From contig NZ_CP019631.1 in the NCBI RefSeq assembly GCF_001999245.1, forward strand, positions 343,153 to 407,152: a DNA stretch of 64,000 nt, written 5' to 3'. The stretch comes from Roseibium algicola (GTDB lineage: Bacteria > Pseudomonadota > Alphaproteobacteria > Rhizobiales > Stappiaceae). Under the pieces are notes generated by a model. That model had not been told where the DNA came from. It made no database searches and saw only the letters and a list, made by a program, of their open reading frames with translations. The number at the start of each line of letters is the position of its first letter. Within the stretch, counting starts at the first letter, position 1. Below are positions 46,086 to 48,296 of this stretch, in pieces. The translations under genes and the position numbers were made by a program.

Positions 46086-46855
46086 GCGGTCTGAACCAGC
46101 TGGTCTCCGGCCTTGCCACCGGAGCCGTCAGGATTGTGGATCTGACCCACACGCTCGATCCGGACTTTCCGGTCATCGTGCTGCCACCCGAGTTCGGTCA
46201 GTGCGCGCGTTTCCGGATGGAGGAAATAAGCGCCTACGATCACCGTGGTCCGGCATGGAAATGGCACAACATTTCCATGAGCGAACACACCGGCACCCAT
46301 TTCGATGCGCCTTCGCACTGGATTTCAGGAAAAGACGTGCCGAATGGCTCGGTTGACGAGATCCCGGTCGAGGCTTTTGTCGGGCCTGTGGTGGTAATCG
46401 ATTGCTCAAAAGGCGCTTCGGAGAACGACGACTTCGAACTGACGCCCGAGGTCATCGCAAATTGGGAAAGCGACCATGGCCGCATCCCGGAAGATGCCTG
46501 GGTGCTGATGCGCACCGACTGGTCCAAGCGCAGAGGCGCCGATTACCTGAACATGCGCGCCGACGGACCGCATTCGCCCGGACCGACGCCTGAGGCGATC
46601 CGGTTTCTGATCGAGGAGCGGAACATCCGCGGCTTTGGTACCGAGACCGTCGGAACGGATGCAGGCCAGGGGGCGCACTACGTGCCGCCCTATCCCGCTC
46701 ACTACTTTCTGCATGGCGCGGGAAAATACGGCCTGCAATGCCTGGCCAATCTCGATCAGCTGCCCGCGACAGGTGCCGTGCTGATTGCGGCTCCCCTGAA
46801 AATCAAGAATGGAACCGGCAGCCCGCTTCGGGTTCTGGCGATGGTGACGGAATGA
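46082..46855 (+). CDS. Cyclase-family metal-dependent hydrolase
   Basis: A 257-residue protein of the kynurenine formamidase/cyclase superfamily. The metal-binding motif is SEHTGTHFDAPSHWISG with later Asp/His/Glu positions (GTDAGQGAHYVPPYPAHYFL). Such proteins hydrolyse amides, lactones or cyclic diketones. In this operon it may open a ring or hydrolyse a product of the CoA steps. It overlaps both neighbours by four bases. Confidence 0.87.
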   Translation: MSGLNQLVSGLATGAVRIVDLTHTLDPDFPVIVLPPEFGQCARFRMEEISAYDHRGPAWKWHNISMSEHTGTHFDAPSHWISGKDVPNGSVDEIPVEAFVGPVVVIDCSKGASENDDFELTPEVIANWESDHGRIPEDAWVLMRTDWSKRRGADYLNMRADGPHSPGPTPEAIRFLIEERNIRGFGTETVGTDAGQGAHYVPPYPAHYFLHGAGKYGLQCLANLDQLPATGAVLIAAPLKIKNGTGSPLRVLAMVTE

Positions 46856-47577
46856 GTGAATTTACGGCAGTCGTTACCGGCGGCAACAAGGGAATTGGTG
46901 CCGATCTGGTCGAAAGGCTTCTCGGTCAGGGTTACACGGTGGTGTCGGTGGCACGAACCGCCCCGGAAAAGTCTCACCCGAACCTGCACTCGGTGGAAGC
47001 CGACCTTCTCGATGCACAAGCCGTGGCCGCTGCCGCCGGCACGATCGCGGCGGAGTTCGACGTCACTCATCTGATCCATAATGCAGGGCTCATCTGGCCC
47101 AACCTTGTCGAGGATGCCAAGCCCGAAGACATCACCGGTCTTGCGCAGTTGCACCTGGGATCGGCATTAACACTCCTGCAGGCGGCCTTGCCAAACATGA
47201 AGGCGCGCCAGTTCGGCCGTGTCATGTTCAACGCCTCACGGGCGGCGCTCGGCGCACCGACCCGAACCGCCTACAGTGCCAGCAAGGCCGGCATGATCGG
47301 TATGGCGCGCACCTGGGCCCTGGAGCTTGCCCCGCATGGCATCACCGTCAACGTGGTCGCCCCCGGCCCGATCCTGACCGACAACTTCTGGGGCATCGTC
47401 GAAAAGGACAGCCCCCAACAGGAAGCCCTCGCCAAACGCATCCCGGTCGGGCGCATCGGCAACGTCCGGGACGTGACTAATGCTTTCCTGTTCTTCTGCG
47501 ATCCGGAAAACAGCTTCGTGACCGGTCAGACGCTTTATGTCTGCGGCGGCGCGAGCGTCGGAACGCTGACGATCTAG
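46852..47577 (+). CDS. Short-chain dehydrogenase/reductase
   Basis: A 241-residue SDR with a full active set: GGNKGIGADL cofactor motif, NAG segment (LIHNAGLIW), Ser in MFNASRAAL and YSASK. It contrasts with the degenerate SDR half two genes upstream. It would oxidise or reduce a hydroxy/keto intermediate of the pathway, possibly the cis-diol made by the dioxygenase. Last gene of the operon; its stop lies inside the first of two hairpins. Confidence 0.9.
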   Translation: MSEFTAVVTGGNKGIGADLVERLLGQGYTVVSVARTAPEKSHPNLHSVEADLLDAQAVAAAAGTIAAEFDVTHLIHNAGLIWPNLVEDAKPEDITGLAQLHLGSALTLLQAALPNMKARQFGRVMFNASRAALGAPTRTAYSASKAGMIGMARTWALELAPHGITVNVVAPGPILTDNFWGIVEKDSPQQEALAKRIPVGRIGNVRDVTNAFLFFCDPENSFVTGQTLYVCGGASVGTLTI

Positions 47578-47652
47578 TGTGGTGAATTTGAAATACGCCT
47601 CATTGGTGCTGCAACCGCCAGAGCGTATTTCAAATTCGAAAACCACACTAGA
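47573..47652. repeat. Long hairpin element 1 of a tandem covarying pair
   Basis: The outer stem of 11 bp is TCTAGTGTGGT (47573-47583) with 47642-47652. The inner stem of 14 bp is AATTTGAAATACGC (47585-47598) with 47623-47636. The bulge is 1 base left and 5 right, the loop 24 nt. It overlaps the stop codon of the SDR gene. Twenty-five perfect pairs in 80 bases far exceed chance. Confidence 0.8.
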
Positions 47653-47663
47653 AACATATATTT

Positions 47664-47741
47664 GCTAGTCACCCTTTTGAATCTGAAGTTCGTTCGGAGC
47701 ATGCCGGAAATTGAGACGAACTTCAGATTCGGGTGACTAGC
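47664..47741. repeat. Long hairpin element 2 of a tandem covarying pair
   Basis: The outer stem of 11 bp is GCTAGTCACCC (47664-47674) with 47731-47741. The inner stem of 15 bp is GAATCTGAAGTTCGT (47679-47693) with 47716-47730. The bulge is 4 bases left and none right, the loop 22 nt. It repeats the plan of element 1 eleven bases further on. The inner arms agree in 10 of 14 bases with every difference compensated on the other arm. Confidence 0.8.
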
Positions 47742-47795: not shown

Positions 47796-48296
47796 TCAGC
47801 TGTCTTCTTGATCTTGCGGCATGCAGGCCAGCAGGGCTGCCTTCACGTCGTCCGGCCAGGGGATGGAGCAATGCTTGTCGAGATCGCTGGCGGCCAGCAC
47901 CTGGGTGCTCGACCAGCGTTTTTCGCCCTTGCAGCTGATCTCGTGATGTATGGTCACCGACGACCGGCCGACCCGCTTCACGGTTACTTCGAACTCCAGC
48001 TCTTCCCCGAAAAAGGAAGGGCTTGAGAAGTCGCTGGAAAGATGGACGGTCGGAGTGCCCCAACGTTCCTCCCAGATAATCTTGTGCCATGGATAGCCGA
48101 GCTTCAGCCAGAATTCCTCGTTCACACCGTTGAGGATGTTCAGATAGGATGGAAAATAGGCTGTGCCGGAGATGTCGCAATCACCGAAGTTGAGCATGCG
48201 GGTGGTTTTGAATGGAACGTCCAAGATGCGTTTCTCCCTGCCACTGGCTGGCTCACCATGGAAAGGTGGCCCAATTTTATTTATTTGATTTTGCAC
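47796..48296 (-). CDS. Acyl-CoA thioesterase-like protein (4HBT hot-dog fold)
   Basis: Up to 166 residues. TRMLNFGDCDISGTAYFPSY then LNILNGVNEEFW matches the 4-hydroxybenzoyl-CoA thioesterase family, with the catalytic Asp in the DCDISGTAYF segment, and HHEISCKGEKRWSSTQVLAA the later strands. It would release an acid from CoA. The GTG start at 48296 has no ribosome site; a TTG at 48224 is preceded by AGGGAG and would give MDVPFKTTRMLNFGDCD, a more usual N-terminus. It lies between the dioxygenase and TRAP/P450 genes on the other strand. Confidence 0.85.
   Translation of the reverse strand: MQNQINKIGPPFHGEPASGREKRILDVPFKTTRMLNFGDCDISGTAYFPSYLNILNGVNEEFWLKLGYPWHKIIWEERWGTPTVHLSSDFSSPSFFGEELEFEVTVKRVGRSSVTIHHEISCKGEKRWSSTQVLAASDLDKHCSIPWPDDVKAALLACMPQDQEDS

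Follow-up and report, generated by a model that had tools for sequence, protein, structure and literature searches.

The described repeats closest to the element analysed here are the CcrM-associated intergenic repeats (CIR) of Caulobacter (Chen and Shapiro 2003). As described in a 2007 review (PMC2229807), CIR are about 110 bp long and consist of two inverted-repeat arms and a linker, with TA termini and a GANTC at or near the terminal loop; according to the review, the mechanism of their mobility needs more information. Also described there are the RUP of Streptococcus pneumoniae, small non-autonomous repeats of 107 bp with short terminal repeats, IS630-family-like ends and a TA target, for which IS630-Spn1 is the proposed mover, and the Correia elements (NEMIS) of Neisseria, which have TA termini and long terminal inverted repeats, form a single end-to-end stem, and give stem-loop transcripts. 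The GTAG/CGTC-tagged REPs, as characterized in PMC3733652, are palindromic repeats of 20-40 bp that often occur as dimers and have an unpaired tag at one end.

Here, we present an analysis of a two-hairpin element in the window, i.e., the whole 64,000-nucleotide stretch of Roseibium algicola DNA that was analysed. Positions 47574-47740 form one 167-bp mobile repeat consisting of hairpin 1, a linker, and hairpin 2, and sequence comparisons suggest that it is probably a non-autonomous IS630-type MITE with hairpin ends. The element resembles CIR in its two linker-joined inverted-repeat arms, its TA termini and its alphaproteobacterial range, which includes the Brucella group, and GANTC is enriched in the Roseibium-type repeat too; however, the GANTC lies in the linker or stems rather than at or near the terminal loop, and the kept copies are 163-172 bp long (118-133 bp in a short-loop form) rather than about 110 bp. 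Because plan, range, and GANTC enrichment fit CIR as the review describes them but the usual length and the place of the GANTC do not, we call the element CIR-like rather than CIR. If it is the same as, or sister to, CIR, the IS630-like ends and CTAG targets described below would provide a concrete and testable mover. The element shares with RUP the small size, the lack of autonomy, the IS630-like ends and the TA target, but a two-hairpin plan with inner bulges is not part of the review's account of RUP; from the Correia elements, as portrayed in the same review, it differs in having two separate end hairpins and a linker. Identity with the GTAG/CGTC REPs, for which PMC3733652 gives no IS630-like ends in its description, is ruled out by hairpins of 76-78 nt with paired CTAG feet on both sides, and Br-REP1/2 of Bradyrhizobium are different repeats by their printed consensus (PMC5082802). 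Among open-access titles, we found none linking CIR to IS630, a weak result because subscription papers mostly lie outside that scope, and the term "IS630" is used 0 times in a 2024 review (PMC10969869). The features of the window copy are:

47574..47740, plus strand: whole repeat, CTAG to CTAG, 167 bp, found as a unit in 36 of the 87 genomes of the family
47577-47737: part of the repeat between its two TA dinucleotides
47574..47651, plus strand: hairpin 1 (left end), 78 nt; fold z -10.8, covariation
47652..47664, plus strand: linker between the inner CTAG feet, partly conserved in the family alignment (A2)
47665..47740, plus strand: hairpin 2 (right end), 76 nt; fold z -9.1, covariation
47574..47577, plus strand: left outer CTAG foot, from the sequence and empty sites
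47737..47740, minus strand: right outer CTAG foot, from the sequence, family alignment and empty sites
47577..47605, plus strand: IS630-like terminal repeat at the left outer end, about 28-30 bp, extending into the loop; family mean 19.4 of 28, resembling an Azotobacter IS630 end
47709..47737, minus strand: IS630-like terminal repeat at the right outer end, about 28-30 bp; 96.7% identity to IS630 ends over 30 bases, family mean 24.2 of 28
47638..47641, plus strand: hairpin 1 bulge GAAA, inner arm, where 69 of 69 broad copies have an insertion
47675..47678, plus strand: hairpin 2 bulge TTTT, inner arm, where 68 of 69 broad copies have an insertion
47679..47683, unstranded: GANTC (CcrM-type) site, with a second site at 47726-47730

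The CTAG feet pair within each hairpin (47574-47577 with 47648-47651 in hairpin 1; 47665-47668 with 47737-47740 in hairpin 2), the inner stems are 15 bp each, and the hairpins are mirror images of each other with both bulges towards the linker. Both GANTC sites lie within the stems of hairpin 2; in other alphaproteobacteria, the linker is usually AATCATANNNTTG. The fold energies are -42.5 kcal/mol for hairpin 1 and -46.5 kcal/mol for hairpin 2, and 0 of 200 shuffles equalled them. Thus, the two hairpins that the original prediction placed here are present far beyond chance, although its ends (47573-47652 and 47664-47741) include one extra pair on each side beyond the CTAG feet. That prediction had also found the differences between the inner arms to be compensated; all four are, but they fall among 15 aligned positions and not 14, and the five differences between the outer stems (GTGGT versus CACCC) are all compensated too. 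By contrast, the description as two tandem hairpins does not hold: they form the opposite ends of a single element, in mirror order and recurring as a unit. The order of left hairpin, linker, and right hairpin also rules out a tandem duplication of one hairpin. As had been proposed, the hairpins do not read as simple terminators, i.e., neither is followed by a T-run after its stem. An Rfam scan of the window gave no family at the gathering score, and a degenerate pattern search within the window gave no match.

The element is set between two convergent gene ends. The left neighbour is a short-chain dehydrogenase gene (46849-47577), whose stop codon TAG (47575-47577) belongs to the left foot and hence lies inside the first hairpin, as originally noted. 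The right neighbour, thioesterase-like and encoded on the minus strand (47796-48296), ends 55 bases past the right foot. The stretch is present whole in eight Roseibium aggregatum/Labrenzia plasmid records with 96.7-99.2% identity.

Searching the family of the source organism with this stretch and scoring no more than nine candidate regions in each genome, we found matches in 36 of 87 genomes and in four of seven genera. There were up to 26 matches per genome, counting opposite-strand matches to the palindromes, and among the matches listed most cover both hairpins. Among 90 fetched loci, which include some copies fetched twice, 87 held a full-length unit and 76 were unique; exclusion of L024, L067 and L080 left 73, and the 53 below 95% identity were kept for the family alignment. 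The kept copies are 163-172 bp long, dispersed, and without a transposase gene. By their flanks, the 87 full-length loci comprise 47 singletons and 40 loci in 17 groups, some of which represent one copy fetched twice or a site common to several genomes. The source genome has one full copy. Elsewhere, copies at separate sites within one genome are up to 99.4% identical (G074), which argues for recent movement there. Of the three options that the original prediction had left open, a mobile palindromic repeat family is the correct one.

The same plan of a CTAG-footed hairpin, a linker, and a second CTAG-footed hairpin occurs with diverged stems in many alphaproteobacteria. A scan with a linker pattern designed to exclude the Roseibium form matched at least 117 stretches, including ones in Brucella (Ochrobactrum group), Mesorhizobium, Bradyrhizobium, Nitrobacter, Hyphomicrobium, Methylocystis, Phenylobacterium, Sphingobium, Novosphingobium, Acidiphilium and Parvularculaceae. 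With 16 locus/strand cases near locus edges dropped, 75 units were parsed. We retained the 69 in which each side had 8 or more of 10 foot pairs; this selects for paired feet but not for the inner stem or the bulge. These 69 broad units are 163-172 bp long with hairpins of 73-81 nt. They carry 2.65 GANTC sites per copy compared with 0.64 in shuffles; GANTC is present in 69 of 69 broad and 48 of 53 family copies, and in the linker of 56 of the 69. A search with a covariance model detected the repeat in at least 23 of the 387 genomes that represent the class, and in at least 18 of 264 genera, source genome included, both being lower bounds with seven candidates scored per genome under strict filters. 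Twelve genomes reached via named loci have from 14 to at least 150 matches each, where both strands of one copy may count.

Both outer ends of the repeat resemble the ends of IS630 elements. The 30 bases at the right end are 96.7% identical to IS630 elements of Rhizobium jaguaris, whose IS630 protein has DDE_3 and helix-turn-helix domains, and of Agrobacterium vitis, and 93.3% identical to IS630 elements on Sphingobium plasmids. For a wider comparison, we used 22 IS630 ends, from the 11 of 15 examined loci with usable end pairs. The outer 28 bases matched these ends at a mean of 18.4 (left) and 19.4 (right) positions in the broad set and 19.4 (left) and 24.2 (right) in the family, compared with 11.7-12.3 of 28 for the inner ends and 10.1-11.1 for shuffled ends. 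In 121 of 122 cases on the left (one tie) and 121 of 122 on the right (one reversed), the outer end matched better than the inner end, and because the comparison was ungapped, part of the inner-arm deficit is due to the bulge itself. The IS630 ends of Martelella and Mesorhizobium start with CTAGTGG, as do the repeats of that group, and the start of an Azotobacter IS630, CTAGTGTGGTGAAT, resembles the left end of repeats from Roseibium and Nitrobacter. The groups of repeats have end types in common with those of IS630 elements.

The distribution of the candidate mobiliser counts against the MITE reading. Our search for proteins of the matching IS630 clade gave finds in no more than 4 of the 87 genomes of the family and 5 of 18 genomes that bear the repeat, several of the finds being fragments, and it gave none in G478 and G483, the genomes with most matches. 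In Nitrobacter, other IS630 ends match the repeat better than those of the resident IS630 do; one IS630 end of G142 is similar to the end of the repeat. Together, the clade-protein searches and the G142 end provide only partial support for a mobiliser in the same genome. It may be that the mobiliser is transient or too distant for the search to reach.

According to PMC2170065, two members of the IS630 family duplicate the TA into which they transpose, and the title of a 1991 paper cited there gives TA in CTAG as the preference of IS630. We queried the 87 family genomes with joined flanks of eight sites. Four of these queries gave a readable empty site, in each case with a single tetranucleotide in place of the two at the filled site: CTAG (L043/L102), CTAG (L064/L103), TTAG (L059/L105), and CTGG (L062/L113). 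Of the remaining queries, L046 and L058 were unclear, and for L070 and L094 no junction was used. Across the alignment of 53 copies, no variation is seen in the G that follows the left TA or in the C that precedes the right TA; conservation is 90% or more for the outermost C and lower for the outermost G. This pattern is what TA duplication inside CTAG would give; however, duplication of CTAG may also account for it, and that the two are indistinguishable is a further point against the MITE reading.

The feet were also examined as gene ends. At 44 of 111 family ends, the TAG of the foot ends a frame that is open for at least 300 nt, compared with 23 and 18 in the other frames, and in the broad set the corresponding numbers are 38 of 124 compared with 27 and 18. 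Calls of gene orientation from GC frame were discarded because the left gene of the window itself was misread. An element that starts with G restores TAG on entering C-TA-G, and such gene ends would therefore be safe landing sites. Accordingly, the stop codon lies in hairpin 1 because the target is CTAG and the initial G of the element restores the TAG.

The pairing of the arms is conserved within the family and beyond. In the 53 family copies, 95.7% of the cells pair compared with 92.2% in shuffles, and 19 of 50 pairs have changed on both sides, giving 83 such cells compared with 17.2; in slid controls, pairing is 22-42%. In a diverse alignment of 59 copies (53 broad and 6 from the family), Watson-Crick pairing is 96.9% and 97.4% compared with 70.4% and 75.8% in shuffles, figures that are raised by the placing of the bulge per copy for most matches. 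These data bear out the original claim that structure rather than sequence has been kept, and with both further copies and covariation in hand, the outcome that would have spoken against it is clearly absent. Double changes in the stems number 39 and 26 within the hairpins (3.5 and 2.5 expected) and 2 to 5 between the hairpins (about 3 expected), while the CTAG feet have some cross-hairpin agreement, e.g., 11 compared with 4.4. Because changes in the stems are matched within but not between hairpins, the arms do not merely track one binding specificity; a shared transposase specificity as the source of covariation is rejected for the stems, in which the arms of separate hairpins change independently. 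We also considered loop-loop pairing between GCNGC motifs and found no consistent complementarity.

Nearly every copy has an insertion on the inner arm, 8-10 bases from the foot and usually of 3-4 nt. In hairpin 1, it is on the inner arm in all 69 broad copies (3-6 nt; two have one outer base too), and in hairpin 2 in 68 of 69 (2-4 nt; the remaining copy has it on the outer arm). Family copies have it on the inner arm in 53 of 53 cases in hairpin 1 (in one of them it is 1 nt long, and 2 nt are inserted on the outer arm) and in 51 of 53 in hairpin 2. Variation in the family bulges is about as low as in the stems and far below that in the loops. The inner-arm bulge is a simple and testable design feature.

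Matched arms can be created and maintained by template switching, as reported in PMC8794818. This raises an alternative that we consider unlikely, namely that the copies are dead, passive remnants whose hairpins are unselected and whose arms are matched only via template switching in replication. The balance of wobble pairs described below is in line with this idea, as is the finding of no clade transposase in most of the repeat-bearing genomes searched. However, template switching should erase the bulges, yet they persist, which counts against correction alone; moreover, the outer ends remain IS630-like, and the occurrence of almost identical copies at separate sites speaks for recent movement. 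We note that the persistence of the bulges also weighs on the MITE reading to the extent that it invokes hairpin-templated correction, which should remove them.

Had selection acted on one transcript strand, G-U pairs should exceed their mirror, A-C. In the family alignment, we counted 56 G-U and 46 A-C (p 0.37), or 37 and 36 with the feet omitted, and in the 53 broad copies 25 and 24. Separated by reading direction, the numbers of G-U and A-C are 21 and 21 for 12 copies read mainly from the left, 4 and 4 for eight read from the right, 20 and 18 for 24 read from both sides, and 11 and 3 for nine with neither. These counts, which are no more than indicative owing to the shared ancestry of the copies and the crude assignment of orientation, give no sign of one-strand RNA selection. 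It is distinctly unlikely, in our view, that the hairpins are primarily kept as RNA for transcript processing or stabilization, as RNase III sites or for protection of 3' ends, with mobility being secondary. The very stable folds, the strong compensatory change, and the location of the window copy between convergent gene ends would agree with such a role, and NEMIS RNA of Neisseria, according to the review of these repeats, has been proposed as an RNase III substrate (PMC2229807). Moreover, among single mismatches in the family alignment, hairpin 1 alone has more G-U than A-C (33 compared with 15), and copies read from both strands or inserted either way could mask an effect in RNA. However, hairpin 2 leans the opposite way (23 compared with 31), and overall G-U does not exceed A-C in the family, in the broad set, or in the copies read from the left. 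The processing element and the small RNA pair contemplated originally are thus unsupported by the wobble counts. Strong compensatory change across orders is usually taken as proof of functional RNA; the present family, in which covarying repeats sit on transposon ends with no sign of one-strand RNA selection, is a warning in this respect.

Returning to the IS630-type MITE reading, we suggest the following model. An IS630-family transposase, resident or passing, would bind both outer ends and move the whole unit by cut-and-paste into a TA within CTAG, with duplication of the TA. The bulge would offset the inner arms relative to the point of cutting; the inner ends would thus be unused, and the two hairpins would travel together. 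The complementarity of the arms may be kept in DNA and not for the sake of an RNA, by hairpin-templated correction during replication together with selection on the structure of the ends, and stop codons ending in CTAG would, judging from the frame counts, serve as safe landing sites. Besides the points raised above, the short-loop forms of 118-133 bp count against this reading in that they have less space for the part of the terminal repeat that lies in the loop.

A related idea, which we regard as decidedly improbable, is that the IS630 (DDE) transposase acts on folded single strands and that the inner bulge marks the true side of the end. The hairpin ends would then keep the terminal repeat double-stranded in single-stranded DNA, as at a replication fork or during conjugation or uptake. 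In a loosely comparable way, the integron integrase acts on folded attC sites. If true, a transposon family kept by structure and not sequence would amount to a novel mode of DDE transposition. Highly improbable is movement by a tyrosine (HUH/Y1) transposase such as those of IS200/IS605 elements or the RAYTs, which would use single-strand end hairpins and insert beside a fixed tetranucleotide, because, although each end has a hairpin and the lone CTAG of the empty site would also fit insertion beside CTAG, both outer ends match those of DDE (IS630) elements and the feet are paired here, whereas PMC3733652 places the tags of the GTAG/CGTC repeats outside the stem.

Several loci depart from the standard arrangement. 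The short-loop form (118-133 bp; L279-L282 in G131, G369 and G364) has the same two hairpins and a GANTC linker, and in G369 the long form is present alongside it. At L071, L074 and L075 (G070) as well as L017 and L079, a similar right flank around GGACCCATAAATGA directly follows the outer CTAG, as if another mobile element occupied the foot. At L199 (1-328) and L216 (11-336 and 2159-2485), tandem copies have one common CTAG, as if one copy had inserted in the foot of another. At L034 (1485-1620), hairpin 1 is reduced to a palindrome of ~30 nt, as expected of a deletion within the hairpin. Finally, L139 (Sphingobium sp. V4) and L039 (Sphingopyxis macrogoltabida) have lone hairpins, one resembling hairpin 2 and one hairpin 1, with the partner absent from the stretch examined.
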